Assembly: GCA_903891045.1 (NCBI GenBank)
Contig: CAITDH010000315.1
Span: 1-33,009 of the forward strand
Direction of reading: 5' to 3'
Source: an uncultured Desulfobulbaceae bacterium
GTDB lineage: Bacteria > Desulfobacterota > Desulfobulbia > Desulfobulbales > Desulfocapsaceae
Length of the DNA stretch: 33,009 nucleotides
Within the stretch, counting starts at the first letter, position 1, and the number at the start of each line of letters is the position of its first letter. Shown here in pieces: positions 5,401-30,239 of this stretch. Position numbers and translations under genes: made by a program. Under the pieces are notes generated by a model. It made no database searches. It saw nothing but the letters and a program-made list of their open reading frames with translations, and was not told the DNA's origin.

Positions 5401-5774
5401 GGATGTTTGCGGGATGGCGGATGATTTGGGAGCGACCCCATGGGATGGATTTTTTCAAGATTGAAAAAATAATTTATCCCATAACCCGGCTCGTGTCCAT
5501 TGCCATTTACACAGGGGAGGTGTGTTCTTGGAGTTTTACCAGAGGTTTAGGTGGTAACACTTTGCGGGACAAATGAAGGTAATGGCAGCGGATTTTAAGA
5601 TGTGCAAAGGAAAATCAGTGGTGATGGCTACAGCATGAGGGACAACGGAGTATTTCACCACGATAAATTCAGAGATCTTTATAGATAAGCTCTAAGTCCG
5701 CAACTACTTGTAACTTGACAAAGATTTCCAGCCACACACCGCTTCCCATACCAGAAAACCAAACAATTGACTCC
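5401..5774. other. Divergent intergenic region, no gene seen
   Basis: Together with the following 156 bases this forms a 530-bp spacer between the minus-strand SNF2 gene and the plus-strand barrel gene, so it should contain the SNF2 promoter. The only clear structure is a 20-bp perfect AT-rich palindrome at 5450-5469 (TTTTTTCAAGATTGAAAAAA), about 50 bp upstream of the SNF2 start. It could be a protein-binding site or simply AT-rich promoter DNA. The ORF-track reading frames here (5394-5576 and 5704-5901) have no recognisable content. Confidence 0.5.
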
Positions 5775-5825
5775 ATCTTGATACTTTTGTGACAACTTTA
5801 CCAGATGTTTTGACCCTATCTTTAT
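5775..5825 (+). promoter_or_regulatory. kdp-like upstream control block, copy A (before barrel gene)
   Basis: This 51-nt block aligns without gaps to 8872-8922 upstream of kdpA, with 38 of 51 positions identical. Its 3' part, GTTTTGACCCTATCTTTAT, matches 18 of 19. TTGACC could serve as a -35 element, but no convincing -10 is evident in either copy. Because it is shared with the K+-uptake operon it is a candidate KdpE-dependent promoter or binding site; that function is inferred. Confidence 0.6.
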
Positions 5826-5864
5826 GCAAGAACTGATACAAACAAGGAAATCTGAAATATCGCA

Positions 5865-5912
5865 ATGAACATCTATGATTGGCAGAAAACACTTTTATCA
5901 AGAATCTATTAA
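5865..5912 (+). pseudogene. Truncated copy of the 5' end of kdpA
   Basis: A 15-codon frame, MNIYDWQKTLLSRIY, ends in TAA 18 bp before the barrel gene. Its first ten residues match the KdpA start [10 protein letters not shown] at 8 of 10, and about 28 of the first 33 bases are identical to kdpA from 9040. It lies 39 nt downstream of control block A, in the same order as block and gene at kdpA, but without roughly 76 nt of the kdpA leader. The simplest reading is that a duplicated kdp promoter plus first codons was left in front of the barrel gene. It might still be translated as a leader peptide, but its ribosome site is weak. Confidence 0.65.
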
Positions 5913-5930
5913 TGGAAAAGGAGAAAACAA

Positions 5931-6734
5931 ATGAAAACGAAAAAAAAGATCAGTCTGGCAGTATTGGGAGCCTTGTGCTGCATGCAGTTTAGCGGCGTGG
6001 CCATGGCAGAAGAGGACAAACCTACGGCGAACCTCGCGGTCAGCGCCCTGAGCAAGTATGTCTGGCGCGGCTTTGAAATGACCAAGGACAGCCTTGTCCT
6101 CCAGCCGTCAATGACGGTTGCCTACAAAGGATTTTCCGCCAATGCCTGGGGCAACGAAGACACCAAGGTGTATGTGCAAAGCGCCGAAGGAGCGGGGACA
6201 AATAACTGGACAGAGACCGATTTGACCCTGGCCTACGACTGGACCATGGGCCCAGTAGGCCTGACCGCTGGCTATATCTATTACAGCCTTATCGGTTTGG
6301 ACAGCCAGGAGGTCTTTGGCCGTGCCACCCTCCACACCCTCTTGACACCGACCTTGACAGTGTATCGGGATTACGACCACTATGCCGGCTGGTATACGAC
6401 GCTTGGTATGTCTCATACCGTGCCGCTCATGGACCAGATCAGCCTCAACCTCGGCGCCCAGATAGGCTACCTGGCGGCTGACGATGCCAATTCCTACGCC
6501 AAGGTCGGCACCGCCGAGGCCTACAAAGGCTTCCATGACGGCCTGCTGTCGGCCTCCATCGCTATCCCGATAAATCAGTACATCTCCATCACCCCAGTGC
6601 TGAACTACTCGTTCCCATTGACCAGCAACGCCCGTGACCTGCTTAAGACCAATAGCCAGGAGTTTCTCAACAGTGGCTCTGACGGCAGGAGTGATTTCAT
6701 CTACGGCGGAATTACGGTCTCCATGGCCTTCTAA
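5931..6734 (+). CDS. Putative outer-membrane beta-barrel protein (TorF/Gcw_chp-like)
   Basis: A 267-residue exported protein. A basic start MKTKKKIS and a hydrophobic core end at a probable signal-peptidase site after GVAMA (about residue 26). The mature part begins with SALSKYVWRGFEMTKDS followed by alternating short strands (for example LTLAYDWTMGPVGLTAGYIYY) and ends in ITVSMAF, the terminal Phe typical of barrels inserted by the BAM machinery. The KYVWRG-type opening resembles the Gcw_chp/TorF family of putative porins, whose substrates are mostly unknown. AAGGAG at 5918-5923 supports the ATG at 5931. The kdp-like block upstream suggests induction under K+ limitation, which would fit an ion-permeable porin; that role is inferred. 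Confidence 0.7.
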   Translation: MKTKKKISLAVLGALCCMQFSGVAMAEEDKPTANLAVSALSKYVWRGFEMTKDSLVLQPSMTVAYKGFSANAWGNEDTKVYVQSAEGAGTNNWTETDLTLAYDWTMGPVGLTAGYIYYSLIGLDSQEVFGRATLHTLLTPTLTVYRDYDHYAGWYTTLGMSHTVPLMDQISLNLGAQIGYLAADDANSYAKVGTAEAYKGFHDGLLSASIAIPINQYISITPVLNYSFPLTSNARDLLKTNSQEFLNSGSDGRSDFIYGGITVSMAF

Positions 6735-7012: not shown

Positions 7013-7678
7013 ATGGTTTCTCTCTGCAAAAGAAAATCGGCTGGTATCTTGTTAACTCTGGCTGTTTTCTTGTCAATGTGTGCTCCAACGTGTCGAGCAT
7101 CCATTGACTCTCATATCATGTCCTCCAGTTTCCGCGCGGGCCTCGCTTCGCCTCTTCCAAACATGACCGGAGTTACTCTTGATCCGTTCCTTGATAACAC
7201 CGCGTTCTCTGAGCAAGATTCCAACCAGGCCATAAGGAGAAAAATGCCACCTGAGCAGAGCGTACTGCAGAACGTACCTAACAGAACTACCAGAAAAGCT
7301 GACACCTCTCACCGCCGTTCCTCCAGGAGCCTCTCGGCAAAAGGCAATGTCAGGCCGAACAATTACGGCAAGGTCAGTGGCCCCTTTCTGTCGGAATCCA
7401 AAGTCAGACAAGTTTTAGAAAGAACAGGCTTCCCGGCAAAGACAATTTCCACGATGCTTCAGATCGCAAGCTGTGAATCTTCTTTTTCCGCAACAGCCGA
7501 GAATGTGAATCGGGATGGATCAATAGACGTCGGACTCTTTCAGATCAATGAACGTAACTGGCGGGAGTGCCACGTTTCCAAGACAGAACTCTCTGATCCC
7601 TACAACAATGCGCGATGTGCCTATCAGGTCTGGCAACATCAAGGCTACAATGCCTGGGGCTGTTTCAACCATATTTAA
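7013..7678 (+). CDS. Secreted lysozyme-like / lytic transglycosylase-like protein
   Basis: A 221-residue protein in three parts. First is a signal peptide (basic MVSLCKRK, hydrophobic LLTLAVFLSMCA). Residues 30-120 are a polar, Ser/Arg-rich, probably disordered linker. The C-terminal ~95 residues form a lysozyme-fold domain containing IASCESSF, with Glu ~154 as the likely catalytic acid, then DVGLFQINERNW and DPYNNARCAYQVWQHQGYNAWGCFN. Four cysteines in the domain suit two disulfides in an extracytoplasmic enzyme. The expected role is cleavage of peptidoglycan glycan strands. AGGAG at 7000-7004 supports the ATG. The 278-nt space in front is unusually rich in hairpins. The lysozyme-like fold is well supported; whether it is a hydrolase or a transglycosylase cannot be told. 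Confidence 0.8.
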   Translation: MVSLCKRKSAGILLTLAVFLSMCAPTCRASIDSHIMSSSFRAGLASPLPNMTGVTLDPFLDNTAFSEQDSNQAIRRKMPPEQSVLQNVPNRTTRKADTSHRRSSRSLSAKGNVRPNNYGKVSGPFLSESKVRQVLERTGFPAKTISTMLQIASCESSFSATAENVNRDGSIDVGLFQINERNWRECHVSKTELSDPYNNARCAYQVWQHQGYNAWGCFNHI

Positions 7679-7839
7679 TGCCGCAAAAATTAAACGAGAT
7701 AACATCCTGTAAATTCGATATATTTACCTGAAGGGCAAAAATAATAAATGGAAAATGGTTATCCCGCTGCAACTGATATATACTGACAAGTATGGATTAC
7801 TCATCCGCATCTTAAATTCAAACAATAAAGGAGATGGTC

Positions 7840-8763
7840 ATGCAGTTTCCCAAGGATACGAATCGAAATGCAGTTTTATGGGGTATCGGAATTGTCGTTG
7901 GATTATTACTTTTCGCTGTTATTTCAAAATATTATATATCTCCTATACATCTGGAGGATACCTACAAAAATATCATGAAGAAAAATGCAATCGTGTCCCA
8001 AATGCGCATTAATCTCCTGAAATCTGTAGAAATGGAGAAAAATGCAGTCATGGCCATAACGGATGAGGAATCCCAGAAGTTTGCCGACCAGTCGCTCGCT
8101 GCCTCGGCAGCAGTTGAACAAAACCTGACACACCTTCGCTCTCTCATCGATGCAGCCCCCCTGCAAGATGAGAAGAAACTGGACAGCGAATTTAACACCT
8201 GTTGGACAGAACTCCGCAAGCTCGATCAAGTCATTTTGGAGCTTGCGGTCCAGAACACAAATCTCAAGGCGGCAAGCCTTTCTCGGGAAAAAGGCGCCGA
8301 AACAATACAACGGTTTGAACATGCCCTTGAAGAGCTTATGCACTCTTATGCAGGGACTCCAAACGAAGGCCGAATAACCAACCTTTCATTCCACGCCATT
8401 ACTGCAGGTCTTAAAATTTACAATCTGCACAGTTCCCACATAGCCGAGGCAAGCGATGAGAAAATGGACCAAATCGAGACGCAGATAAAAGCAGAGGAAA
8501 ACGAGACGACAAAATCTCTTGATGGACTTGCCGAAATCGTTGGTGAAGGGAGTAAGGATTTATTATTGCAGGCGAAAACGGCTTTTTCCGAATTTAATGA
8601 CGTTGCCGTCAAGGTGATCAAACTGTCGAGACAAAACAGCAACATCAAATCGTTAGAACTCTCGTTGGGCAGAAAACGTAAAATTGCGGCTCAATGTGAT
8701 GAGATCCTTGCTGCTTTCCAGGAGACTGTTCAAAAAAACAGTACTTCCAGGGCGACACGGTAG
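7840..8763 (+). CDS. Membrane-anchored helical-bundle protein (4HB-sensor-like, no output domain)
   Basis: A 307-residue protein with one N-terminal membrane helix (AVLWGIGIVVGLLLFAVISKYY). The rest is almost entirely charged, heptad-like helix, for example LLKSVEMEKNAVMAITDEESQ and SKDLLLQAKTAFSEFNDVAVKVIKL. The layout resembles two tandem four-helix-bundle ligand-binding modules as found outside the membrane in chemoreceptors, but there is no HAMP, signalling or catalytic domain and no second membrane helix. The start was moved to the ATG at 7840 because AAGGAG (7828-7833) directly abuts the ATG at 7834 and is correctly spaced only for the second one. It could be a periplasmic sensor or an envelope structural protein. 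The function is unknown. Confidence 0.6.
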   Translation: MQFPKDTNRNAVLWGIGIVVGLLLFAVISKYYISPIHLEDTYKNIMKKNAIVSQMRINLLKSVEMEKNAVMAITDEESQKFADQSLAASAAVEQNLTHLRSLIDAAPLQDEKKLDSEFNTCWTELRKLDQVILELAVQNTNLKAASLSREKGAETIQRFEHALEELMHSYAGTPNEGRITNLSFHAITAGLKIYNLHSSHIAEASDEKMDQIETQIKAEENETTKSLDGLAEIVGEGSKDLLLQAKTAFSEFNDVAVKVIKLSRQNSNIKSLELSLGRKRKIAAQCDEILAAFQETVQKNSTSRATR

Positions 8764-8871: not shown

Positions 8872-8922
8872 ATCTTGATGATTTCTTGATACCTTCGTCA
8901 TGCGTTTTGACCCCATCTTTAT
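8872..8922 (+). promoter_or_regulatory. kdp upstream control block, copy B (before kdpA)
   Basis: This is the partner of block A at 5775-5825 (38 of 51 identical). The most conserved part is GTTTTGACCCCATCTTTAT. It ends 114 nt before the kdpA start, leaving a long leader. It is the best candidate for the KdpE-activated promoter region because KdpE is encoded in the same operon and normally activates it. No E. coli-type KdpE box or clear -10 could be identified by eye. Confidence 0.55.
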
Positions 8923-9036: not shown

Positions 9037-10824
9037 ATGATGAACACCTACGATTGGCAGCAAACACTCTTCTTTTTCGCGGTGCTGCTCCTCCTGGTCA
9101 AACCGGTCGGCACCTTTATGGCCAAGGTTTATCAAGGCGAGCGGACCTTTCTCTCGCCCCTCCTTGGCCCCTGCGAGAACCTGCTCTACCGGATCTGTGG
9201 AGTGAACACGAACGAGGAGATGGGCTGGCAGCGCTACGCTGGCACCATGCTCCTCTTCAATCTTGTGGGTTTCCTGGCGCTCTTCGCCATATTGCTCCTG
9301 CAGCATCTGCTGCCCCTGAACCCGCAAGAATTTCCAGCCTTTTCCTGGCAGCTGGCGCTCAACAGCGCCATCAGCTTCATCACCAACACCAACTGGCAGG
9401 CCTACAGCGGCGAGTCAGCGGCCAGCTATTTTACCCAGATGGCGGGGCTCACGGTGCACAACTTTGTCTCTGCCGCCACCGGCATGGCCATCGTCATCGC
9501 CCTGATCCGCGGCTTTGTCCGGCGCAAGACCTCACTCGTCGGAAACTTCTGGGTCGATATGAGTCGCGGCACCCTCTACATCCTGCTGCCGATGGCGCTG
9601 GTCGCCGCCCTTGTCCTGGTCTCTCAGGGGGTGATCCAGAATTTCAGCTCCTACCAAACCGCGCCCTTGGTGCAGGCCACCAACTACGATAAGCCGCAAT
9701 TAGACGAAGCGGGCAAGCCACGCCTGGATGCTGCCGACAAACTGATGACCGACAAGGTAATCGTCAACGAGGTCACCATCCCCATGGGGCCGGTCGCCTC
9801 CCAGGAAGCCATTAAAGAGCTCGGCACCAACGGCGGCGGCTTCTTCAACGCCAACTCGGCCCACCCTTATGAGAACCCGACCCCGCTCTCCCATCTGCTG
9901 GAGATCCTGCTCATCCTGCTGATCCCGGCCGGCCTCACCTACACCTTCGGCATCATGGTTGGCAATACCCGCCAGGGCTGGACGCTGCTGGCGGTCATGC
10001 TCCTGCTCTTTGTGGTTGCCTTTAGCGTCCTGCAATGGGCCGAGACCAGCAGCACCCCGCAGCTCACCCAGCTCGGGATCGATGGCGGCAATATGGAAGG
10101 CAAGGAGGTCCGCTTCGGCATGGCCAGCACCAACCTCTTTACCGTGGCCACCACCGGCACCTCCTGCGGGGCGGTCGCGGCCATGCACGACTCGCTCACC
10201 CCCATCGGCGGCATGATTCCCTTAAGTCTGATCCTGCTGGGCGAGATCGTCTTCGGCGGGGTCGGCTCCGGTCTCTACACCATGCTGGCCTTTGCCATCA
10301 TCGCCGTCTTCGTCTCCGGCCTGATGATCGGCCGGACACCTGAGTACCTGGGCAAGAAGATCGAGGTGCGGGAGATGTGGGTGTCAATCATCACCATCCT
10401 CAGCGCCGGGATTGTGGTGCTGATTCTCTCGGGGATCGCCATGATCACCCCCTCGGCCGTGGCCGCCATGGCCAATCCCGGGGCTCACGGCCTCTCCGAG
10501 GTGCTTTACGCCATAGCCTCCATGGCCAATAATAACGGCAGCGCCTTTGCGGGCTTAAGTGCTAACATCAACTTCTATAACATCCTCGGTTCGTTGGCCA
10601 TGCTGATCGGCCGCTACGTGCCGGCGGTGGCCATCCTCGCCATGGCCGGATCGCTCGCCGGCAAGAAGTACGTGCCGCCCAGCCTCGGCACCCTGCCCAC
10701 CGACAAGGCGCCATTTGCCCTCTGGTTGACCCTGGTCATCCTCATCGTCGGCGCCCTTACTTTTTTCCCGGCCCTCGCCCTGGGACCGATCGTTGAACAC
10801 CTGACCATGCTTGGAGGTAACTAA
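9037..10824 (+). CDS. kdpA: Potassium-transporting ATPase subunit KdpA (K+ channel-like subunit)
   Basis: A 595-residue polytopic membrane protein that binds and passes K+ in the KdpFABC pump. Pore-loop signatures are clear: [11 protein letters not shown] near residue 115, [21 protein letters not shown] near 262, [21 protein letters not shown], and [15 protein letters not shown] near the end. The ORF track begins at a GTG at 8941, but GGAGG at 9025-9029 and the family start MNTYDWQ point to the ATG at 9037 (or 9040). Compared with E. coli there are roughly 30-40 extra residues around 212-247 ([18 protein letters not shown] region), just before [11 protein letters not shown] nine-codon frame (9011-9040) ends inside the kdpA start. 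It is the first gene of kdpABCDE; no kdpF was recognised upstream. Confidence 0.98.
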
Positions 10825-10828
10825 AGCC

Positions 10829-12895
10829 ATGTCGACACACATCCCACAACCAAAATCAGCCTTTGATAAGGAACTGATGGCGGGCGCTCTGCTCGACGCC
10901 CTCAAAAAACTCGACCCGCGCTCCCTGTGGCGCAACCCGGTCATGTTTGCGGTTGAGATCGCCAGTTGCATCACCCTGGTGACCTTCATTCTCTCGCTCA
11001 CCGGCGCTAACAGCGAGCCGGTCTGGTTCACCGGCGCCGTCTCGGTCTGGCTCTGGTTGACGGTCCTCTTCTCCACCTTTGCCGAGGCCTTGGCCGAAGG
11101 CCGCGGCAAGGCCCGGGCTGCGTCTTTGCGCAAGTCACGCACCGACGTCACCGCCAAGCTGCTCAAAACCCCTGATTTCGCGAGCAGCCAGACCTCGATC
11201 GGCGCCGACCAACTCCGCAAGGGCGACTACATTCTGGTGGAGGCAAACGACCTGATCGCCGGCGACGGCGATGTGGTCGCCGGCGCCGCCTTGGTCAACG
11301 AGGCAGCGGTGACCGGTGAGTCTGCCCCGGTGGTCCGTGAATCGGGTGGGGACCGGAGCGCGGTCACCGGGGGCACCACGGTCATTGCTAATTCAATAAT
11401 TGTCCAGATCACCGCCAATCCCGGCGAGACCTTCATCGACCGCATGATTTCGCTCATCGAAGGGGCCAAGCGCCGCAAGACCCCTAACGAGGTTGCGCTG
11501 GAGGTATTGTTGATCGCCCTCACCCTGGTCTTTTTACTGGTCTGCGCCAATATCAGCCCGCTTTCCATCTACAGCGTCGCCACCGCAGGCCATGGCAGCC
11601 CGGTATCACTGACCATCCTGGTGGCGCTCTTTGTCTGTCTGGCCCCCACCACCATTGCCGCCCTCCTGCCCGCCATCGGCATCGCCGGCATGGACCGCCT
11701 CTTCCAGAAAAACGTCATCGCCCTCTCCGGCCGGGCCATCGAGGCCGCCGGCGACGTCAACGTGCTGCTCCTCGACAAGACCGGCACCATTACTCTCGGC
11801 AACCGGGAGGCGGTCGCCTTTGTGCCGGTAGGCGGCCATTCGGAGATGGAACTGGCCAAGGCGGCCCTGACGGCCTCGCTCAGCGATGAGACGCCGGAGG
11901 GACGCAGCGTGGTGGCGCTCGCCAAGCAGAATCATGGTTTGCTGCCGGATGCGCTGCCCGTGAGTGCAACGGCGATCTCCTTCAGCGCCGATACCCGTCT
12001 CTCCGGGGTCGATATTGATGGCATCATGTACCGCAAAGGGGCCGCCGACTCCATCACCGCCTTTATCGGCAAGCAGGGCGGCATTGTGCCCAAGGACCTG
12101 GAAGAGCGGGTCAATGCCATCGCCCACGCCGGGGCGACGCCGCTTGTGGTCTGCCGTGGGGCTGAGGTCTTAGGGGTCATCAACCTCAAGGACATTGTCA
12201 AGAGCGGCCTCCAGGAGCGCTTTCAGCAACTCCGCAGCATGGGAATCAAGACGATAATGATCACCGGCGACAATCCGCTTACCGCCGCCGCCATCGCCGC
12301 CGAGGCCCAGGTCGATGACTTCCTGGCCCAGGCCAAGCCCGAAGACAAGCTGCGCATGATCAAGGATTATCAGGAAGCCGGTTTCATGGTGGCCATGACC
12401 GGTGACGGCACCAACGATGCCCCGGCCTTGGCCCAGGCTGACGTGGCGGTGGCCATGAACACCGGCACCCAGCCGGCCCGCGAGGCGGCCAACATCATCG
12501 ATCTTGACAGCAACCCGACCAAACTGCTCGATATCGTCGAGATCGGCAAACAGATCCTCATGACCCGCGGCAACCTGACCACCTTCAGCATATCGAATGA
12601 TATTGCCAAATATTTCGCCATCATCCCGGCGGCGCTCCTTTCCATCTATCCGCAATTGGGGGCGCTGAACGTCATGCATCTGGCCAGTCCCTACAGCGCC
12701 ATCCTGTCGGCGGTCATTTTCAACGCCATCGTGATCCCGATGTTGGTGCCATTGGCGCTGAAGGGCACCAAATTCCGCCCCATGCCGGCCGAGAAAATGT
12801 TGATCTACAACCTGCTCGTTTACGGGGTCGGCGGCATCATCGCCCCATTTATCGGGATCAAGGCCATCGATCTCGGTCTCGGCCTGTTCATCTGA
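10829..12895 (+). CDS. kdpB: Potassium-transporting P-type ATPase subunit KdpB
   Basis: A 688-residue P-type ATPase that hydrolyses ATP to drive K+ uptake through KdpA. Visible are the actuator TGES (residues 162-165; the Ser corresponds to the regulatory Ser162 of E. coli KdpB), the phosphorylation motif DKTGTI with Asp316, and the hinge [11 protein letters not shown] followed by [30 protein letters not shown]-type sequence. Seven membrane helices are expected, with the C-terminal pair readable in [13 protein letters not shown] and the tail. The ATG at 10829 is preferred over the TTG at 10811 in the track because GGAGG lies at 10813-10817, inside the kdpA tail, and kdpA ends four nt earlier. 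No catalytic residue is missing. Confidence 0.98.
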
Positions 12896-12924: not shown

Positions 12925-13494
12925 ATGAAAGAAATAAAATCAGCCCTGCTCATGTTCATCCTGTTCACCGTCATCTGCGGCGGCATCTACCCCGCCGTGG
13001 TTACCGGCCTGGCCCAGGTCATTTTTCCGAGACAGGCCAGGGGCAGCTTCATCACTAATCCTGAGGGCAAGGTAGTTGGCTCCGTTCTCATCGGCCAACC
13101 ATTTTCCGAACCGAAATACCTGTGGCCGCGGCCCTCTGCCACCACTGATTTTGGCTACAACCCGCTGGCCTCCAGCGGCTCCAACGCCGGGCCCACCAAT
13201 CCAGCCTATTTGAAGACCGTTGACGAACGCCTGCAAGGGCTGCGTGCTGCAGGGGTAACCGGGCCGGTTGCCGCCGACCTGGTGCAGGCCTCAGCCAGCG
13301 GCCTCGACCCCCATATCTCGCCGCAGGCCGCAAGCCACCAGGTAGGCCGCATCGCCCTGGAACGCGGCCTGAGTGAGGAGACGGTCGACCGCGTCATCAC
13401 CGCTCACACCGAAGACCGCCAATTCGGCTTTATGGGTGCGCCACGAGTAAATGTGCTTGCCATAAACCTGGAGTTGGATACAATAAGTCCATGA
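12925..13494 (+). CDS. kdpC: Potassium-transporting ATPase subunit KdpC
   Basis: A 189-residue protein with a single N-terminal membrane helix (ALLMFILFTVICGGIYPAVVTGLAQVIF) and a periplasmic domain. The KdpC signatures GQPFSEPKYLWPRPSAT, GSNAGPTNPAYL and SASGLDPHISPQAA are all present. KdpC is needed to assemble and stabilise KdpAB and raises ATP affinity. It starts 29 nt after kdpB with AAGGA upstream, and its stop overlaps the kdpD start as ATGA, so pump and sensor genes are translationally linked. Length and motifs are normal for the family. Confidence 0.97.
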   Translation: MKEIKSALLMFILFTVICGGIYPAVVTGLAQVIFPRQARGSFITNPEGKVVGSVLIGQPFSEPKYLWPRPSATTDFGYNPLASSGSNAGPTNPAYLKTVDERLQGLRAAGVTGPVAADLVQASASGLDPHISPQAASHQVGRIALERGLSEETVDRVITAHTEDRQFGFMGAPRVNVLAINLELDTISP

Positions 13495-16193
13495 ACACTG
13501 AGAACGACAGCCGTCCCTCTCCCGAGACCATGCTGAAACTGGCCAATGCCGAAGAGGCGGGCAACAGCGGGCTGGGCAGACTGCAACTGTTCCTGGGCTA
13601 CGCCCCCGGAGTCGGCAAAACCTACACCATGCTGGAGGCAGCCCACCTGCGGCGGCGCGATGGCCGGGATGTAGTGGCGGCCTATGTGGAGTCCCATGGC
13701 CGCAGCGAGACCGATGCGCTTCTCGTTGGCCTGGAGGTCATGGCCAAGGCCGCCATCGAATATCAGGGGGTGCGGCTGCCGGAACTGGATATCGATGCGG
13801 TGCTGGCCCGAAAGCCGCAGATCGCGCTGGTGGACGAGCTGGCCCATACCAATGTCCCCGGCTCCCGGCACGAAAAACGCTGGCAGGATATTGAAGAACT
13901 GCTGGCCGCCGGCATCGACGTCTATACCACGGTCAACGTCCAGCACTTCGAGAGCTTAAACGATGTCGTGGCCCAGATTACCGGCGTCGTTGTCCGCGAG
14001 ACCGTGCCCGACCGCCTGCTGGATCTGGCGGCGGAAATACGCCTAGTAGACATCCCGCCGGAGGAGCTTTTGCAACGCCTGCGTGAGGGCAAGGTCTATA
14101 TCCCGGAGCAGGCGGCGCTGGCCACGGAAAAATTTTTCAAGGCCGGCAACCTCATCGCCCTCCGTGAGTTGTCGCTGCGGCGCGCAGCCTCAAGGGTTGA
14201 CACCGAGATGCGGGCCTACATGGAGACGCAGTCCATTCCCGGTCCCTGGCCAGTGACTGAGCGGCTTCTGGTCTGTGCCAGCGGCAGTCCTTTCAGCGAA
14301 AAACTGATCCGCACTACCCGCCGTCTGGCCGATGAGTTGAAGGCGGATTGGTTTACGGTTTACATCGAGACCCCAAGCCTGGGTACTCAACAACAGGAGA
14401 ACCGGGAACGGATCTGGCGCGATCTGCGTCTGGCTGAACGCCTTGGCGCCCAGGTGGCGACCGTGACCGGCGCCAAGGTCGCCGAGACAATCATCGACTA
14501 CGCCGTGCGCCATAATGTCACCCGTATCGTAGTCGGCAAACCGACTAAACCCCGCTGGCGTGAGTTTCTGCGCCCTCCCATTGTCGATCAGCTTATCCGC
14601 CTGAGCGGGGCCATCCAGGTGCATGTCGTCAGCATCGAGCCGGGGCCTCTTAAACCTGGCAGCCAGATTACCAAGGCCAAGCAGCAACTCCCTTGGTCCG
14701 GCTTCCTGGCAAGCCTGGCGCTGGTGAGCGCGACAACCGTGCTCGCCACCCTGATGAGACCCCTGTTGTCGCCAACCAACACGGCCATGATTTACCTGTT
14801 GGCGGTCGTGCTTGCCGCCGTCCGCCTTGGTCTGAAGCCTGCTATCCTCACCTCGACCTTAGGCGTCCTGGCCTTTGATTTTTTCTTTGTCTCTCCCCGC
14901 TTCACTTTTTCTGTTGCCGACTCAGAATACATTTTCACCTTTATTGGACTGTTCACAGTCGGAGTGGTCATCAGCACTCTGGTGGCAAAATCCAATGAAC
15001 GGCTGGAGGTCGTGCGGGAGCGCGAGGTGCAGACCGAAAGCCTCTACTCCCTGAGCCGCGATCTGGCAGTTGCCGCCGATATGGACGCCATCATGGATAC
15101 CGTACTCAAGAATATCAGCGAGGCCCTGAACGCGCAACTTGCCATTCTGGTTCCGGAAGGGGAACAGATGAAGATCATGGCTATTAGCCAGGACCTCTTC
15201 CTCGACATGAAGGAGTTGGCGGTGGCCGACTGGGCTTTCCGAAACTGGCAGCCCGCCGGCCAGGGCACCGAGACGCTCAGCTCGGCGGCCCTTCTCTATC
15301 TGCCGCTCTCGACGACGGCCTCTCTTCTCGGCGTGTTGGGGGTCAAACTGGGACAGGCGGTCGATTACCGTTCACCGCAAAACCGTCGTCTCCTCGATGC
15401 CTTTGTCACCCATATCTCACTGGCCATGGAACGGGTCCATCTCTCCCTCCAGGCGGAACAGGCCCAGATCCTGCAAGCCCGAGAGAGCCTTGAACGGGCG
15501 CTGCTCAACTCCATCTCCCACGACTTGCGGACGCCCCTGGTGTCAATTATCGGCGCCTTGAGCAGCCTTCACGATGAAAACCTGCGGGTAAGCGACAAGG
15601 TCCGGCGAGCGCTGTTGAGTGGCGCCTGGGACGAAGCGGAACGCCTGAATCGCTTTGTCGGCAACCTACTCGACATGACGCGCCTGGAGGCCGGCGAGTT
15701 GAAATTGCAGGCTGAGCTTTGCGATGTGCAGGATTTAGTGGGCTGTTCGCTGGCCGCACTCGACCAGCGACTGAATGGCAGAGGCGTGACGGTGACACTT
15801 GCCCCCGATCTGCCATTGGTTTCCATGGACATGGTCCTTGTGACCCAGGTCATGGTCAATCTGCTTGATAACGCCTTGAAATATTCGCCGGTCGAAAGCT
15901 CCCTGGAGATCCGAGCTCGAACCGATAAAGCCTGGCTGACCATCGAGGTCCTTGATCATGGCCCCGGTATTCCCGACCACGACCTGAAACGGGTATTCGA
16001 TAAATTCTACCGCCTGCCAGTCCCGGAGGGGAAAGGCGGCGGCACGGGCCTGGGACTTTCCATCTGCCGGGGGATTGTCGAGGCCCATGGCGGCATCATC
16101 TGGGCCGAGAACCGATCCGGCGGCGGACTGCGGATAACGCTCCGCCTGCCATTACAACGAAAACAGGAAACAAGGAGTGCTCATGGGAAATAA
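13491..16193 (+). CDS. kdpD: Sensor histidine kinase KdpD
   Basis: A 900-residue K+ sensor kinase of full-length type. The N-terminal KdpD domain carries the Walker A segment GYAPGVGKTYTML (about residues 37-49) and DELAHTN. A universal-stress-like domain follows (residues 255-375), then four closely spaced membrane helices (about 400-500), a GAF-like region, and the HisKA box NSISHDLRTPL with His677 (E. coli His673). The ATPase domain shows NLLDNALKYSP, DHGPGIP and GGGTGLGLSI. KdpD phosphorylates KdpE when K+ is limiting. The gene overlaps kdpC by 4 nt and kdpE by 11 nt. Nothing appears truncated. Confidence 0.97.
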   Translation: MNTENDSRPSPETMLKLANAEEAGNSGLGRLQLFLGYAPGVGKTYTMLEAAHLRRRDGRDVVAAYVESHGRSETDALLVGLEVMAKAAIEYQGVRLPELDIDAVLARKPQIALVDELAHTNVPGSRHEKRWQDIEELLAAGIDVYTTVNVQHFESLNDVVAQITGVVVRETVPDRLLDLAAEIRLVDIPPEELLQRLREGKVYIPEQAALATEKFFKAGNLIALRELSLRRAASRVDTEMRAYMETQSIPGPWPVTERLLVCASGSPFSEKLIRTTRRLADELKADWFTVYIETPSLGTQQQENRERIWRDLRLAERLGAQVATVTGAKVAETIIDYAVRHNVTRIVVGKPTKPRWREFLRPPIVDQLIRLSGAIQVHVVSIEPGPLKPGSQITKAKQQLPWSGFLASLALVSATTVLATLMRPLLSPTNTAMIYLLAVVLAAVRLGLKPAILTSTLGVLAFDFFFVSPRFTFSVADSEYIFTFIGLFTVGVVISTLVAKSNERLEVVREREVQTESLYSLSRDLAVAADMDAIMDTVLKNISEALNAQLAILVPEGEQMKIMAISQDLFLDMKELAVADWAFRNWQPAGQGTETLSSAALLYLPLSTTASLLGVLGVKLGQAVDYRSPQNRRLLDAFVTHISLAMERVHLSLQAEQAQILQARESLERALLNSISHDLRTPLVSIIGALSSLHDENLRVSDKVRRALLSGAWDEAERLNRFVGNLLDMTRLEAGELKLQAELCDVQDLVGCSLAALDQRLNGRGVTVTLAPDLPLVSMDMVLVTQVMVNLLDNALKYSPVESSLEIRARTDKAWLTIEVLDHGPGIPDHDLKRVFDKFYRLPVPEGKGGGTGLGLSICRGIVEAHGGIIWAENRSGGGLRITLRLPLQRKQETRSAHGK

Positions 16194-16875
16194 TCTGCCG
16201 CGCCTACTCATTGTTGATGACGAGCCGGCAATCCAGCGTTTCCTGCACACGGCGCTCGACAACGACGAATTTTCCCTGCATCAGGCCGAAAACGGCCACG
16301 CCGCGCTGACGGCCGCCGTGGCCTCAAAGCCTGACGTTATCCTGCTGGATCTGGGGCTGCCGGACATGGATGGGGTGGAGGTGATTCGCCGGATACGGCA
16401 ATGGTCGCAGGTACCGATTATCGTCCTCTCCGTGCGCGACCGGGAAGATGACAAGGTCAAGGCCCTGGATGCGGGCGCCGATGACTACCTGACCAAACCC
16501 TTTGGCGTCGGCGAGCTGCTGGCGCGGATCCGGGTTGCATTACGGCGTTCCTTGCAGCAGGCCCCGGAGCCTGTCTATCGCATTGATGAGCTGGAAGTGG
16601 ATCTGGCCCGGCGGCGGGTGCTGATGCGGGGCGAAGAGATATCATTGACCCCCACAGAATATGACGTCTTGCGACTGTTGGTCGCCAACGCTGGAAAGGT
16701 GCTGACGCACCGTCAGATTCTCAAACAGATATGGGGCTCTGCCTATCTGGAACAGCCCCATATCCTGCGAGTCAATGTCAGCAATCTCCGTCATAAACTT
16801 GAAAAAGATGCTTCGCGACCTTGCTATATTGTGACCGAATCAGGAGTGGGATATCGTTTTAAAGGGCAATCATGA
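16183..16875 (+). CDS. kdpE: Response regulator KdpE (OmpR family)
   Basis: A 230-residue regulator with an N-terminal receiver (LLIVDDEP acidic pair, phosphoacceptor Asp56 in ILLDLGLPDMDG, Lys in DYLTKPFG) and a C-terminal OmpR-type winged helix (LTPTEYDVLRLLVANAGKVLTHRQIL, ending in the hairpin ESGVGYRFK). The ATG at 16183 is chosen over the GTG at 16177 in the track because AAGGAG (16172-16177) lies 5 nt before it. As the last gene of the operon it would activate the kdp promoter. The shared upstream blocks suggest that it may also control the barrel gene. Confidence 0.96.
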   Translation: MGNNLPRLLIVDDEPAIQRFLHTALDNDEFSLHQAENGHAALTAAVASKPDVILLDLGLPDMDGVEVIRRIRQWSQVPIIVLSVRDREDDKVKALDAGADDYLTKPFGVGELLARIRVALRRSLQQAPEPVYRIDELEVDLARRRVLMRGEEISLTPTEYDVLRLLVANAGKVLTHRQILKQIWGSAYLEQPHILRVNVSNLRHKLEKDASRPCYIVTESGVGYRFKGQS

Positions 16876-19556: not shown

Positions 19557-22277
19557 CTATTGAAATAATTCTGGTTTGCATACGCCATACCCTTGAGCGT
19601 AATCAACGCCGATTTCCTTGAGGAGCTTGATGATGTCGTCGTTTTCGGCAAATTCGGCAATATTCTGCAGACCCATTACATGGCCCACATGATTGATCGA
19701 TTCGACCATGGCGCGGTCGATCTTGTTATTGACGATTTCTTTGACAAATATCCCATCAATCTTTAGAAAATCCACTTCAAGATTTTTCAGGTAGGCAAAG
19801 GAAGACAAACCACTGCCGAAATCATCCAGTGAGAAACGGCAGCCCATTTTGCGCAGGACGCGCATAAACTGCTGGGCTTTGTCGATGTTGGCAATGACTG
19901 CAGTCTCAGTGATTTCAAAACATAAACGCTGAGGGGCCATGCTGTATGTTTTGATCAGGTCAATGACGTATGCGAGAAACCCGTCATCTGATAGGGTCTG
20001 GCCCGAGAGGTTGATAGCGCACACGTAAGGGAAATCTACACCTTTACGTGCTATGATCGAGAGGGCTTCACGCACCACCCAGCGATCGATGAGCGGCATC
20101 AGGTGATAGCGTTCGGCCACAGGCAGAAAATATCCTGGCGGATAAAGTGTGCCATCATCGTCCTGCATGCGGACAAGCAACTCGCAATGCTGCTCAGCGC
20201 CTATCTTCAGGGTTGCCATGCGCTGGATGTAGAGGACCAACTGATTTTTTTCCAGTCCTTGGTGGATACGTGATAGCCAATCGAGCTGGCAGTTGTGTTG
20301 TATTAGATCTTTATCATCTGGGCGAAACACATGAATACGGTTGCCGCCCTCTTTCTTGGCGGTATAACAGGCTGAATCTACTGTACTGAGTAATTCACTC
20401 AGAGTGTGGGAGTAATCTGGCGTGATTTCGGTCAAGCCGATACTGGCACCAACCTTGAACACCTTATCATCGAAGATGAAGCGGTATTCCTTTATCGCTT
20501 GCAACAAACCTATGATGACTTTGTACCCTTTATCTAGTTCACATCCCATCAATAACACGGCAAACTCGTCCCCCCCCAAACGTGCCAACGTGTCTGAGCT
20601 CCGCATCTTATCTTTTAGATGGGTCGCAATTTGCCGAAGCAGCACATCCCCTGCCATGTGACCACACGTGTCATTGACTACTTTGAACTGATCCAGATCG
20701 ATATAGGCGAGACAATGAGTACATTTTTCTGTGGAGGTATTTTCAATGGCGTCTTGAGCAATGCGATCGAACTCATAACGGTTGATAAGGCCCGTCAGGG
20801 CATCATGCTGCGCTTGAAAAATGAGCTGTTTGGACAGGGATCGTATGGCGGTGACATCATGCAGCACCGTGACCGCGCCAAAGTAGTCGCCGGTGGGGTC
20901 ATACAGTGGTGCCGCCGACTTCCGCACGAGAAGTTCTTGTCCATCGGTACGTTCAAGAATCACCTCTTTAATATTGCTGGTTGGATCAGTCAGCCAGACA
21001 CTGTCAACCGGTGTGGTTTTGTCCTCCGCCATAAGACAGAATAAAGATTGCAATGTCTTGCCACTGGCCTCGCTCAGAACAACCCCAGTTAGGTGTTCTG
21101 AGGCTTTATTCATATAAGTGACACATCTGTCAGCATTACTCGTGATCACCGCATCGGCGATTCCTGCCAGCGTAGCCTGGGCATGCTCCTTCTCGATGTG
21201 CAGTGCATACTGCGCTTGATCGAGGCGCTCCAGCATGCTGTTGATACCGTGGGCAAGACTGGAGAGTTCGTCATTGCCATTGAGTTCCTGTAGGCGCGTT
21301 GTGATGGTGGTAGCTTCACCGATATGTTTTACATTATCACTCAACCGCGTCAATCGCGACAAGATCAATTTATTCAACAGCCAACTGAAGACAACCAATG
21401 TCAATGCGATCAGCATCATTGACCATAACAAAAAATGCAGGTTGAATTTACCCTGCTCAAAAATTCTCCGATCGCCCACTGTCCGTACGATGAGTTGGTC
21501 GGAACCGCCAATGTTCTCCATCAAGGCGTAACCAGCCACTTCCTGGTCTCGCAAAGGTATTACGGCCATCGCGCCCTGGGTCTGTATCCTGGCCACAGCT
21601 GTAATCCGATCGGCTGACAAGTCCTGACTGGCCAAAGTTTCGATGGTGATATGGGCGTCGACAATTTTCTCAATGTGCTGCACCAACAATTGATCGATAG
21701 CACGGATCATAATCAATCTGCCGTTGGCTGATCCCTGTCCATTGCTGGGCAGAACATCGAAAGCAGAAATAAAACAGATGCCTTCCGGTGTCCAGAATAA
21801 TCCAGAAACATGACCTTGCCCAGAGGTTGATCCCAGCAGGGCGCCCCCTTTAGCCGCTGCCTGCTCAATCATCTTGGGAATGGGCCAGGGTTTCCCGCTC
21901 TCGGCATTAAAACCCTTCTTGAACAAGACGTCCCCTTCGAGATTGACGAGGATGACGGCGTTAATATTCAGGTGTCGAAAGGTGTCGGGACCGTAGTTGC
22001 TTTCGATATAGACTGGATTTGAGGTTATTATGTGTTGATAGGTCTCGTCCCACTGGGCCCAGTCGCTGACGATGCCATCAAGTTGTTGAGACTGGTCTTG
22101 CAAAAGGCTTACGGCGCTACCGATTTGAATCAGGGTCTTGTCTTGTTCAAGCTGAGAATACCCATTGAGCAGCAAGGCCCGTGCGGCTATAAATTGCGTG
22201 GCAAATAATGCCAGCATGCCCATGGCGACCATGATGACCAGTTTGGTTCGCAAACCCTTAAGGTGCATTCCTGTCAT
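19557..22277 (-). CDS. Membrane CHASE4-HAMP-PAS-GGDEF-EAL c-di-GMP turnover protein
   Basis: A 906-residue protein. Membrane helix 1 (about 10-33) is followed by a periplasmic CHASE4-type domain with its hallmark SDWAQWDETYQ (about 65-75), helix 2 (about 280-305), HAMP, PAS (about 362-480), GGDEF (about 490-650) and EAL (about 670-905). The cyclase loop is intact GGDEF with RSSD five residues upstream. The phosphodiesterase part shows ELLVR, INLSG, FEITETA, DDFGSG, LKIDGIF and AEFAEN, so the main metal and catalytic positions appear kept. It could therefore both make and degrade c-di-GMP, with the balance set by periplasmic and PAS input. Its start overlaps the upstream kinase stop as ATGA. 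Confidence 0.94.
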   Translation of the reverse strand: MTGMHLKGLRTKLVIMVAMGMLALFATQFIAARALLLNGYSQLEQDKTLIQIGSAVSLLQDQSQQLDGIVSDWAQWDETYQHIITSNPVYIESNYGPDTFRHLNINAVILVNLEGDVLFKKGFNAESGKPWPIPKMIEQAAAKGGALLGSTSGQGHVSGLFWTPEGICFISAFDVLPSNGQGSANGRLIMIRAIDQLLVQHIEKIVDAHITIETLASQDLSADRITAVARIQTQGAMAVIPLRDQEVAGYALMENIGGSDQLIVRTVGDRRIFEQGKFNLHFLLWSMMLIALTLVVFSWLLNKLILSRLTRLSDNVKHIGEATTITTRLQELNGNDELSSLAHGINSMLERLDQAQYALHIEKEHAQATLAGIADAVITSNADRCVTYMNKASEHLTGVVLSEASGKTLQSLFCLMAEDKTTPVDSVWLTDPTSNIKEVILERTDGQELLVRKSAAPLYDPTGDYFGAVTVLHDVTAIRSLSKQLIFQAQHDALTGLINRYEFDRIAQDAIENTSTEKCTHCLAYIDLDQFKVVNDTCGHMAGDVLLRQIATHLKDKMRSSDTLARLGGDEFAVLLMGCELDKGYKVIIGLLQAIKEYRFIFDDKVFKVGASIGLTEITPDYSHTLSELLSTVDSACYTAKKEGGNRIHVFRPDDKDLIQHNCQLDWLSRIHQGLEKNQLVLYIQRMATLKIGAEQHCELLVRMQDDDGTLYPPGYFLPVAERYHLMPLIDRWVVREALSIIARKGVDFPYVCAINLSGQTLSDDGFLAYVIDLIKTYSMAPQRLCFEITETAVIANIDKAQQFMRVLRKMGCRFSLDDFGSGLSSFAYLKNLEVDFLKIDGIFVKEIVNNKIDRAMVESINHVGHVMGLQNIAEFAENDDIIKLLKEIGVDYAQGYGVCKPELFQ

Positions 22278-25200
22278 TTTTCATCCAGTCCCTTGCGCAC
22301 TGCCAGCGCCAGTTGGTGGATCGAGATGGGCTTCATCAGGTAGGCACGGATGCCGAGGGCGAGGGCCTGTTCTTTGTTGATCAGTTCGCTGAACCCGGTG
22401 CAGAGAATGATCGGCAGATCTGGGCGGATGGCCAGCGCCTTTGTCGTGAGCTCAAGGCCGGTCAGGTGCGGCATGGTCATGTCGGTGATAAGCAGGTCAA
22501 AGGCCGAAGGGGCCAGGGCAATACGGGCCATGGCCTCCTCGCTGTCGTTGATAATAGTGACCTGGTAGCCAAGGCTGGTGAGGATGGCCTCAAGCATAGT
22601 GGTGATCACTGCCTCATCATCGACCACCAGTAGTCGTTCGGTGCCGGTGGGGATGGGGTCGCTTCCGCCCGCCTTAATAAATGAAGGATTTTCCGCTATC
22701 CTCGGTAGATAGACATGAAAGCGTGTACCCTTGCTCGGTTCGCTTTCCACCGTAATATGCCCCTGATAGCTTTTAACAATGCCATGGACCACGGACAGAC
22801 CGAGGCCGGTACCCTCTCCCTTTTTTTTGGTGGTAAAGTAGGGGTCAAAGATATGGACCAGTGTCTTTGGCTCCATGCCATAACCGGTATCGCTGATCTC
22901 AAGCAACACATAGTTCCCCGGAGTGAGTTCGGTGCCGGGGACCCTATTGTCATCATCAATGGTGATTTTTGCCAGTCTCACCCCCAGTACTCCGCCGCTC
23001 TCGCGCATGGCATGGTAGGCGTTGGTGCAGAGATTCATGATGACTTGGTGAAGCTGGGTCGGATCGGCGAGGATAGCGCCGCACTCCGGGGAAATCTCCT
23101 CGCGGATTTCAATAGTGGAGGGGAGGGAGGCCCGGAGAAGTTTGAGCGCCTCCTTCACCACCAGATGCGGCTGAAGCGGTTTTCGCTCCTGAGGGGCCTG
23201 ACGGCTGAAGGCAAGGATCTGCTGCACCAGATCCTTGGCCCGTCCGGCAGCGGTGATGATTTGCTGCAGATCGGTAGTCAGGGGATCGCCTGGGGAAAGC
23301 TTGGCCATGGCCATCTCGGAATAGCCGAGAATGGGGGCCAGGATGTTGTTGAAGTCATGGGCAATGCCGCCGGCCAGGGTGCCGATGGCCTCCATCTTTT
23401 GAGTTTGTCTGAGTTGTTCCTCAAGTTGCATCTGTTCTGTCACATCACGTTTTACCGCCACCTGATTGATAATTTCTCCAGCTTCGTTCAGGACCGGGGT
23501 GATCGAGGCTTCTTCTTCAAACAGGGTGCCGTCTTTTTTCTTGTTAATCAGGTGTCCCTGCCACGCCTTGCCACTGGTCAGTGTCTTCCACATCTCCTGA
23601 TAAAAGAGGGCATCATGTTTGCCGCTTTGTAAAAATCTCGGGTTCCTACCGATCACTTCAGCTTTGGTGTAGCCGGTGATCTGTTCAAAACCGGGGTTGA
23701 CATATTGGATCATGCCGTCTCTATCAGTAATGACAACGCTGTCTATGCCTTGTTCGATGGCGGTTACCAGGCGACGCCGTTCTTCTTCTCCCTGTTTGCG
23801 TTCACTGATATCCAGACAATATTCAATAACCTGACTGAGATTGCCGTTGCTGTCAAAGATTGGATAGGCATGGATCTCAACACGTTGTTCCTTGCCGGCT
23901 TGATCGGTGTGAATATGTTCAACAACGACCGGCTGTTTCGTTTTTTTAATCTCTTTGAGAGTACAGGGATGTTTATCACCTGCACAGGGTTCGGAACGGT
24001 CATGGGTGAGCTGGAAACAGGTTGTGCCCTCTTGATATGTGCCGAAACGAGAAGCCTTGTTGGACAGTTGAATGGTATAGTCATTGGCGTCGATGATATA
24101 GAAGGGGAGGGTCAGGGCATCCAGGGCGTTTTGCAGAAATGTCTGCTGTCCCTTGATTTTTTCCTCAGCTAGCTTACGCTCGGTAATATCAATTACATTC
24201 CAGAGTACGCCCGGCTCACCATTGGGCAGTTGCATCTTGACCCCGGAAAATATGCACCAGAAAACCGTGCCATCTTTACGGCGCCAAGGGTAATCAATAC
24301 TGGCAAGAGGGAGACCCGCCTGGGCTTCATGGAAGCAAGGGGCCCAGGCTTCGTAATGCTGCTGATCAATATGCAGAATCCGGGCGCTCTGCCCCACCAG
24401 CTCATCATGGTTGTAGCCGAACAGGTTGCAGAATTGGTTGTTGACCCTCTGGATGTGCCGGGTGGAAGAGACAATCAGCATGCCAGAGCCGTTCACCTCA
24501 AACAGGCTCTGTATGTGATCGCGCTCAAGAGCGAGCTCTGCTTCCGCCTGCTTGCGTTCGCTGATGTCGCGGGCAATACCAAGGATGGCTGGTTGGCCGT
24601 TGATCTCCAGCATGCCTATATGAATTTCCACCGGAAATAATGAACTGTCCTTGCGCTGATGCCTGCTTTCTATTGTTAGAGTCTTGCCAATAGAGAGTTC
24701 TTCCCAGATCTTCTTGGCGTGCTGCTCTGTCACAAAACTGGGATCAACATCGCCAAGGTTCAATGTCAGCAGTTCTTCTCTTGTATAGCCGAGGCCTTCG
24801 TAGGCTTTTTTGTTCACGTCAATAAAGTGGGCGTTCATATCACTGACAAAGATGGCATCCGTTGCCTGATCAAGCAGGGTACGATACCGGTTCTCCTTTT
24901 CCCTTAAGGCTTGCTCAGATTGTTGGCGTTCGGTGACGTTTCTGAGTACATCATCGGCCATGGCGTTAAAGGCTTGGGAAAGTTCAGTCAGCTCGCCCTG
25001 GCCGGTGACAGCCGTCCTGACCAGATAATCACCTTGACTGAAACGGTTCACACTCTCTTTTAGATGGAAGAGTGGTTGTGTCAGCCAGCGGTTCAGCGCT
25101 GCCCAAAGGGACAGCATCAGGAGCAGACCAACCGCCCAGACAGAGATGGTGTTTACAAGCAGGGTATGAAAAAGCCTTGCCTTGCTCCGGGACAGGTCAT

Positions 25201-25702
25201 AGCTCATGAAGATCATACCAACGCGGGTGGGCCGAATCTGTCCCGATTCCACGGCGAGCACAACCGGCTGGTAGGCAACGATATCTTTGCGGCCGGACGA
25301 CAGCTGGATATCCGGTTTTCGGTTTTTCTGGGCGGAGAGAAAACGATTCCGGTCAAAGAGAGGCAGGACTTCATGGACAGGACGGCCCAGCCATCCCATT
25401 TGCGAACCGTAGAGAACAACGCCCTGATCGTTCACAAATACGACTGACCGAACCTCGGTCGGAATGTTCAGATCGGCGATTTCAGCTTCAACAAGGTTGT
25501 CCATACCGTTTTTCAGGAAGGTTTCGAACCTGGGGCCTGTTCGGGCTAAAAGCTCTTGCAGCGAAGTGAGCACTCTTCTTTCGACATTGAGCTCATATTG
25601 ACGATGTTCTTGCAAAGTGAAGAATAAAAGGAGCAGACTGAAAGCCCCAAAGACAAGAACTGGAATCCAGAGACGCAAGCGGATGGTGGTAAAGTCCTTC
25701 AT
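22274..25702 (-). CDS. Membrane hybrid histidine kinase (HAMP, four PAS, HisKA, ATPase, REC)
   Basis: An 1142-residue kinase. Membrane helix 1 (about 9-28), a ~150-residue periplasmic domain, helix 2 (about 183-205) and HAMP lead into four PAS domains (about 275-390, 400-520, 530-645, 655-770). The DHp box GGIAHDFNN carries His782; the ATPase domain shows NLCTNAYHAM, DTGYGM and GEGTGLGLSV; a terminal receiver carries Asp1074 in LLITDMTMP. PAS 3 holds a cysteine pair (SEPCAGDKHPC). No output domain follows the receiver, so the phosphate must pass on or be drained. It overlaps the solute-binding protein stop (ATGA) upstream, suggesting that this periplasmic domain reads that protein. Its receiver shares a 95-bp identical DNA block with the next kinase. 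Confidence 0.94.
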   Translation of the reverse strand: MKDFTTIRLRLWIPVLVFGAFSLLLLFFTLQEHRQYELNVERRVLTSLQELLARTGPRFETFLKNGMDNLVEAEIADLNIPTEVRSVVFVNDQGVVLYGSQMGWLGRPVHEVLPLFDRNRFLSAQKNRKPDIQLSSGRKDIVAYQPVVLAVESGQIRPTRVGMIFMSYDLSRSKARLFHTLLVNTISVWAVGLLLMLSLWAALNRWLTQPLFHLKESVNRFSQGDYLVRTAVTGQGELTELSQAFNAMADDVLRNVTERQQSEQALREKENRYRTLLDQATDAIFVSDMNAHFIDVNKKAYEGLGYTREELLTLNLGDVDPSFVTEQHAKKIWEELSIGKTLTIESRHQRKDSSLFPVEIHIGMLEINGQPAILGIARDISERKQAEAELALERDHIQSLFEVNGSGMLIVSSTRHIQRVNNQFCNLFGYNHDELVGQSARILHIDQQHYEAWAPCFHEAQAGLPLASIDYPWRRKDGTVFWCIFSGVKMQLPNGEPGVLWNVIDITERKLAEEKIKGQQTFLQNALDALTLPFYIIDANDYTIQLSNKASRFGTYQEGTTCFQLTHDRSEPCAGDKHPCTLKEIKKTKQPVVVEHIHTDQAGKEQRVEIHAYPIFDSNGNLSQVIEYCLDISERKQGEEERRRLVTAIEQGIDSVVITDRDGMIQYVNPGFEQITGYTKAEVIGRNPRFLQSGKHDALFYQEMWKTLTSGKAWQGHLINKKKDGTLFEEEASITPVLNEAGEIINQVAVKRDVTEQMQLEEQLRQTQKMEAIGTLAGGIAHDFNNILAPILGYSEMAMAKLSPGDPLTTDLQQIITAAGRAKDLVQQILAFSRQAPQERKPLQPHLVVKEALKLLRASLPSTIEIREEISPECGAILADPTQLHQVIMNLCTNAYHAMRESGGVLGVRLAKITIDDDNRVPGTELTPGNYVLLEISDTGYGMEPKTLVHIFDPYFTTKKKGEGTGLGLSVVHGIVKSYQGHITVESEPSKGTRFHVYLPRIAENPSFIKAGGSDPIPTGTERLLVVDDEAVITTMLEAILTSLGYQVTIINDSEEAMARIALAPSAFDLLITDMTMPHLTGLELTTKALAIRPDLPIILCTGFSELINKEQALALGIRAYLMKPISIHQLALAVRKGLDEK
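22395..22489. repeat. 95-bp identical receiver block, copy 1
   Basis: Every base is identical to 26947-27041, in the same reading frame of the two receiver domains, including the phosphoacceptor Asp codon. Flanking sequence differs at many silent and replacement positions. This suggests recent gene conversion or recombination between the two kinase genes. Confidence 0.85.
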
Positions 25703-26718: not shown

Positions 26719-26813
26719 ATTGTTTTCTCCCGGAATCTTGTCGAAGCTGAAGAAAATTCTGTTTGCAACTTTGTGATTTTGATTTGGGTTCCTCCTGTTT
26801 TTGTCATCCACCG

Positions 26814-29627: not shown

Positions 29628-29630
29628 GGT

Positions 29631-30155
29631 TCAGTCCCCGTAATATTCCCGGCCTTGGGCGGTATCGGCCTCAGGGCTCTGTTCCAGATAGATGGTAACC
29701 CGGCACTGTTCACATCTTTTGGCAATGGTTTCTTCTAATACCACCTTGGCATAGCCCAGATTGGTGGCGGTGATGACCCCGAAGACATTGGAGGTCATCA
29801 TGCACATGGATGGCCGGTCAAATACCGCACCTCCAAAGGGGCAGGAAGAGCTGGAGAGGATGATCTTGTGGTGATCTTGTGTAACGATGGAGAAATCACC
29901 GTGGATCCGTTGTTTCAAATCAACCAGAACCTGGGCTACCTGTTCCCGGCTTAGCGAGGTAACCCCAAATCCTTTGGTGTAGAGGCTGTTGATCCAGTCC
30001 CCCAAGTGTTGGCCGACCAGGCTGATATAGCCGGCTGCTTCCTCATAGCCAATCACGGCCTCCAGAGTGCCCGCCAGTTCCCGGATCAGGGTTTTGAAAA
30101 AAATATCGCTGTTTAAGGGAATATCGAGTTGCTGCATGGCCGTTATCTCATCCAT
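29631..30155 (-). CDS. Small cysteine-containing sensor protein (methanogen-output-domain-like)
   Basis: A 174-residue single-domain protein. Its C-terminal half reads SSCPFGGAVFDRPSMCMMTSNVFG, then TNLGYAKVVLEETIAKRCEQCRVTIYL. The CPFG, MCMMTSNVFG and C-x-x-C/RVTIYL blocks resemble the MetOD1 domain (methanogen output domain 1) found next to sensor kinases; I give that name with moderate confidence. Four cysteines could bind a metal or cofactor. AGGAG 7 nt upstream supports the ATG at 30155. It lies 84 nt after one hybrid kinase and 3 nt before the next, so it probably works as a detached sensory or relay partner. The ligand is unknown. Confidence 0.65.
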   Translation of the reverse strand: MDEITAMQQLDIPLNSDIFFKTLIRELAGTLEAVIGYEEAAGYISLVGQHLGDWINSLYTKGFGVTSLSREQVAQVLVDLKQRIHGDFSIVTQDHHKIILSSSSCPFGGAVFDRPSMCMMTSNVFGVITATNLGYAKVVLEETIAKRCEQCRVTIYLEQSPEADTAQGREYYGD

Positions 30156-30239
30156 GGTAAGACTCCTTTCTGGAGAACCCAGATTCCTGCGGTTATGCCT
30201 TTACGGATACGCTATGGCGTTTTCTCTTGAACTTTTTCC

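Follow-up and report, generated by a model that had tools for sequence, protein, structure and literature searches.

A second kdp-type promoter, apparently older than that of kdpA, precedes a putative outer-membrane barrel gene in an uncultured Desulfobulbaceae bacterium

The stretch of DNA analyzed here (33,009 nucleotides in full, hereafter the window) contains two kdp-type control regions, one (block B) in front of kdpA and another (block A) in front of a putative outer-membrane barrel gene. We consider it quite likely that block A is a working KdpE promoter, the older of the two, which drives a transcript of the barrel gene and of the genes lys and mcp; KdpE would bind to it, and the transcript would respond to K+. 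Comparison of sequences carries the promoter's identity and conservation, the age order and the link between mcp and potassium. The features concerned are as follows.

5723 to 5774, forward strand: left flank of promoter A (blastn and sequence comparison)
5775 to 5824, forward strand: promoter A, with two pairs of KdpE-type half-sites (matrix score, near-unchanged in G007 and G015, E. coli-like layout)
5834 to 5842, forward strand: extended -10-like element TGATACAAA (alignment; inference)
5865 to 5912, forward strand: kdpA-start fossil, MNIYDWQKTLLSRIY* (comparison with the KdpA start at 9040)
5918 to 5923, forward strand: Shine-Dalgarno sequence of the barrel gene, AAGGAG (sequence)
5931 to 6734, forward strand: putative outer-membrane beta-barrel with a signal peptide and 12 predicted strands (profiles, AlphaFold2 model, PDB fold matches)
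7013 to 7678, forward strand: lys, small exported lysozyme/transglycosylase-like protein (Pfam SLT_3, Lys, SLT)
7834 to 8763, forward strand: mcp, membrane-anchored periplasmic double four-helix-bundle protein (model, fold search, genome context)
8872 to 8921, forward strand: promoter B, the KdpE-type boxes of kdpA (matrix score 56.8 bits)
9040 to 10824, forward strand: kdpA (Pfam PF03814)
10829 to 12895, forward strand: kdpB (position; conserved in relatives' kdp operons)
12925 to 13494, forward strand: kdpC (position; conserved in relatives' kdp operons)
13491 to 16193, forward strand: kdpD, sensor kinase (Pfam KdpD)
16177 to 16875, forward strand: kdpE, response regulator (comparison with relatives)

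The preliminary description of this DNA had reported a gapless 51-nt block with 38 identities to the region upstream of kdpA, and we recovered exactly that match, between 5775-5825 and 8872-8922. It had staked the similarity on local alignment against shuffled sequence, and the observed score lay beyond every dinucleotide shuffle of block A under two scoring schemes (0/2000 in either; 44 versus a shuffle maximum of 35 in one scheme, and 30 versus 24 in the other). The next-best segment of the window reached a local score of 19 against the kdpA control region. A 50-nt matrix was then trained on kdpA promoters from 12 other genomes of the order, with the source genome and its three nearest relatives excluded. 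When the whole window was scanned, block A scored 54.2 bits at 5775, second only to block B, the kdpA promoter, with 56.8 bits at 8872; the window mean was -48 (sd 12) and the best non-kdp site reached 7.5 bits. In the 2.85-Mb genome, the box pattern was found at A and B only (two mismatches or fewer). The promoter pair is not an assembly artefact, given that independent assemblies of two relatives carry both. These sequence data support block A as a true control region of the kdp type, with half-sites resembling those of KdpE.

The order-wide consensus of the boxes is TTGAY-N6-TTGAY-N16-TTGA-N8-TTKA, i.e., two half-site pairs of 11-nt period, and an extended -10-like element, TGnTAnan, lies at a fixed distance 3' of them. 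The KdpE site of E. coli is TTTATA-N5-TTTACA, and the first T of the half-site was found to be invariant across genera (PMC3264566). Pair 1 of the consensus is like the E. coli kdpFABC promoter in having two T-rich 6-bp direct repeats, 5 bp apart and with an 11-bp period; in both cases the repeats lie upstream of the promoter core and belong to a response regulator of the OmpR/PhoB family (PMC3264566). Unlike in E. coli, there are two pairs here, the second of which overlaps the -35 region, and the element stands also before non-kdp genes. In promoter A, pair 1 reads TTGATA (5778) N5 GTGACA (5789) and pair 2 TTGACC (5810) N5 TTTATG (5821). TTGATA, TTGACC and TTTATG fit the repeat form (first two T conserved, 5-bp spacer), while the second half-site, GTGACA, has lost its first T, a departure common to all three genomes that carry block A. 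The spacing between the boxes and TGATACAAA equals that at kdpA. Since both half-site pairs, one of them weakened, are followed, with unchanged spacing, by an extended -10, control by KdpDE is the best reading of block A, with KdpE as the presumptive binding protein. A simple sigma-70 scan missed promoter A, whose -10 is of the extended type and lies outside the consensus of the scan. A riboswitch explanation was dropped because Rfam gave no match; PADLOC likewise returned none.

To see where the box pattern occurs elsewhere, 258 genomes of the order were scanned with one mismatch or fewer, and the sites were set against kdpA positions and the genes downstream. Among the 52 sites found, 35 precede kdpA (counting contig-end fragments and one divergent kdpA), five precede kup-type K+ transporters, two precede kdpD and four the mcp module; one is a relic at a native kdp site, one stands before an exported protein beside kdpA, and four were left without a class. 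The kup identity comes from NCBIfam for one copy (L120) and from similarity to that copy for the others. A phylum scan (297 genomes, slightly different pattern) yielded two sites outside the source genome, both before kdpA.

Several of these loci deserve separate mention. The kup genes with their own KdpE-type box (L116, L117, L118, L119, L120) lie directly upstream of kdpA in three cases. In Geobacter, too, a kup gene is next to the kdp cluster, 3' of kdp, but it has been attributed to a putative riboswitch (PMC2700814), whereas kup of this order has its own KdpE-type box. The exported protein of G093 (L072 7940-8386, minus strand) is small and lacks a Pfam match; its gene, a short way upstream of kdpA, follows a second box of the KdpE type. 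In G045, a second, divergent kdp operon is flanked on both sides by KdpE-type boxes (L124 4965 and 6305), one of which precedes a kdpE homologue.

Downstream of promoter A, the 15-codon frame MNIYDWQKTLLSRIY*, said to match the KdpA N-terminus at 8 of 10 residues, proved to be as described: eight of its first ten residues match KdpA, and 26/30 bases are identical to the kdpA start (27/32 in a local alignment). No Shine-Dalgarno sequence is present for this frame (5865..5912), which would be an inert leader; it is eroded in G015 and absent in G007, its sequence having changed freely. G015 retains the promoter, the eroded fossil and a mere remnant of the barrel start, and G007 keeps the promoter with neither fossil nor barrel. 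Box A of these two genomes differs from the window copy at 1-2 of about 55 positions, as against 16-22% of the 4-fold sites of mcp in the same genomes (Fisher p = 0.004 and 0.0016, related genomes being counted as independent). The lys-mcp pair follows promoter A in all three genomes (G000, G007 and G015). In G007 (L062 5928-6113), the SNF2-type helicase that neighbors block A in the window is reduced to a fragment beside the promoter.

The preliminary description had explained block A as a duplicated kdp promoter with the first codons of kdpA. The kdp-type region and the kdpA-start fossil stand, but block A was not copied from the promoter that kdpA has today. Block A is identical to the kdp promoters of the congeners G003 and G009 at 56/68 aligned positions and to block B at 46/68 over the same positions; block B agrees with the congeners at 50-51/68. 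In this genus, a conserved gene of 65 aa neighbors the native kdp site, and G003 has tRNA-Leu(CAA) on the far side; in several members without kdp, the 65-aa gene directly adjoins that tRNA-Leu. The native site of G015 has a decayed A-type box and no kdp, and that of G007 only the start of a box, which is truncated. In G008, a B-type promoter at the native site directly adjoins the left flank of block A, a fusion best explained by deletion. This flank (5723..5774) is common to the native kdp sites of G008, G015 and G007. Together, the congener matches, the native-site relics and the G008 flank indicate that block A is an older kdp promoter with the first kdpA codons, descended from the native kdp promoter, and that block B is a diverged promoter now used by kdpA; by the same comparisons, A and B split long ago. 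Exchange between species is possible in the tandem placement or in the movement of the locus (G000, G007, G015). At the G015 native site (L115 6500-6982), next to tRNA-Leu, the operon has gone and the promoter has been left behind.

The first gene after promoter A is predicted to encode an outer-membrane beta-barrel, on the basis of a signal peptide, judged by inspection, and a closed antiparallel barrel in the AlphaFold2 model (mean pLDDT 86.4, 12 strands). PDB structures matching the model are outer-membrane barrels, e.g., PcoB, Tsx and OmpG; a PDB sequence search with the barrel profile gave zero matches. The protein is like the Gcw_chp/TorF putative porins (PF09694, TIGR02001) in its weak profile match, signal peptide and predicted barrel, with scores short of the curated cut-offs (Pfam 19.9 vs. 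24, NCBIfam 26.7 vs. 47.15). Barrel relatives are common in the order, and many adjoin an ammonium transporter gene, several also P-II; a trio of P-II, ammonium transporter and family barrel recurs (L057 5802-8810; L056, L058, L059, L060). Unlike these ammonium-linked relatives, the window copy stands behind a kdp-type promoter. As its relatives are mostly found beside ammonium-transporter genes, the barrel's own history points to nitrogen, and the window copy seems, from these sequence neighborhoods, to be an ammonium-linked paralogue recruited to K+ control, in keeping with the comparable size of K+ and the ammonium ion. A sigma-54 pattern was found at three loci only, so that sigma-54 promoters for ammonium-linked barrels are treated as a hint, and their presence at all such barrels was rejected. 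Nor was it supported that the window barrel arose by recent duplication of the C225 copy in the same genome: the tree, in which its neighbors are poorly placed, sets it outside the clade of C225 and the C225 orthologues. No KdpE box was found before the barrels near kdp in genus g18 (L067, L068).

The barrel does not hold up as the conserved target of the promoter. Two relatives keep the promoter and have lost the barrel, which makes the barrel an optional passenger, and lys-mcp always follows. A link between outer-membrane permeability and K+ limitation is therefore a plausible hypothesis for the source genome, one not conserved in relatives, given the promoters kept without a barrel and the nitrogen-linked history of the barrel. 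A search of the available literature found no paper linking KdpE with a porin.

The gene lys is present only in G000, G007 and G015, and relatives of mcp were found in 13 of the 258 genomes. The barrel and lys are separated by 278 nt containing terminator-like hairpins, no more than shuffles give; because of this gap, lys-mcp and the barrel may belong to separate transcripts in the source genome. Eleven of the 13 mcp genomes also have kdpA (p = 1.5e-8, with related genomes counted as independent). mcp lies between kdpC and kdpD in G132, G134, G136, G121 and a fragment of G137, after kdpE in G035 and beside kup in G033 and G045, and it has its own KdpE-type box in G206; G004, which has mcp, lacks kdp and shows no box near mcp. 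By genome context, mcp is a potassium gene, potassium-linked across the order. The family is conserved beside kdp or kup, often in the order kdpABC-mcp-DE (window 7834-8763; L154-L161, L121). In its model, an N-terminal anchor helix is followed by eight further helices arranged as two four-helix bundles; the closest PDB folds, at modest TM-scores of 0.39-0.52, come from the periplasmic portions of PilJ, McpS and TorS. The predicted stack of two periplasmic four-helix bundles is like the helical bimodular sensor domains of those proteins; unlike them, mcp stops after the bundles, without a second membrane segment or signalling domain. No MCPsignal domain is present, which sets it apart from methyl-accepting chemotaxis receptors. 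mcp may act as a periplasmic partner or sensor for K+ uptake.

With this second kdp-type switch in front of them, the barrel and the two further envelope genes are probably switched on at potassium shortage. KdpE binding, co-transcription, the K+ response and the protein roles belong to a model that we infer as follows. Low external K+ would lead KdpD to phosphorylate KdpE, which would bind the half-site pairs of both A and B. B would drive kdpABCDE, and A, which retains the opening codons of a kdpA copy that is otherwise gone, would drive a short envelope transcript encoding the barrel, the lysozyme-like enzyme and mcp. The barrel would give K+ a passage across the outer membrane, and mcp would help Kdp/Kup or periplasmic K+ sensing.

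Promoter A could be functional and KdpE-controlled and yet be selected for lys-mcp only, with the barrel a recent or neutral passenger that has no K+ role. G007 and G015, which keep promoter and lys-mcp without an intact barrel, favor this account, as do the independent potassium links of mcp alone. In the window, however, no other real gene stands between the promoter and the barrel, which is intact, has a good ribosome-binding site and retains the residues that are invariant in its family, and we judge the account rather unlikely. It is improbable that promoter A is a non-functional leftover, kept by chance, of a kdp operon that was relocated or in part deleted. True relics do exist, such as the decayed box at the G015 native site and the truncated one in G007, but these are changed or cut short, whereas A has stayed nearly constant in three genomes in which neighboring sites have diverged as given above.

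Origin of block A by recent duplication of the promoter now in front of kdpA would account for fossil codons so close to the present kdpA start, but such copying from B to A was rejected on the promoter distances and the native-site relics: the A core resembles the congeners more than it resembles B, and both its left flank and an A-type relic are found at the native kdp site, by the 65-aa gene and tRNA-Leu. We give this origin very little credence. Direct repeats with an 11-nt period are a feature of OmpR/PhoB-family boxes, so the similarity might reflect a site of another regulator of that family, or a common sigma-70 layout. That the pattern occurs almost only at potassium loci in the 258 genomes, and that the 297 phylum genomes add just two sites, both before kdpA, makes such a coincidence hardly credible. 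We retain the reading of block A as a KdpE promoter; the feature is real and functionally credible, and its regulatory interpretation is well supported by comparison of sequences, with the barrel-specific physiology put forward as a hypothesis.

In the usual picture of Kdp regulation, one response regulator serves one operon. To our knowledge, the passage of K+ across the outer membrane under starvation has seldom been addressed. The present evidence points to a KdpE regulon that extends to a second K+ transporter, to a new partner in the periplasm and, within one lineage, to an outer-membrane barrel, and it names specific candidate genes for K+ crossing of the outer membrane in starvation. 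E. coli KdpE has essentially one direct target locus and a few genes (PMC7657598). We suggest, tentatively and with some doubt, that the KdpE regulon of this order is wider than that of E. coli, taking in kup, mcp and, here, an ammonium-derived barrel, and that K+ starvation remodels all layers of the envelope. If true, this would be a rare case tying a porin-like protein to the supply of one named cation. Promoter A also offers an example of a promoter that outlived its gene and was then reused. Elsewhere in the window (22274-32507, minus strand) are three large hybrid histidine kinases with very similar kinase-receiver ends, which suggests repeated duplication or exchange.
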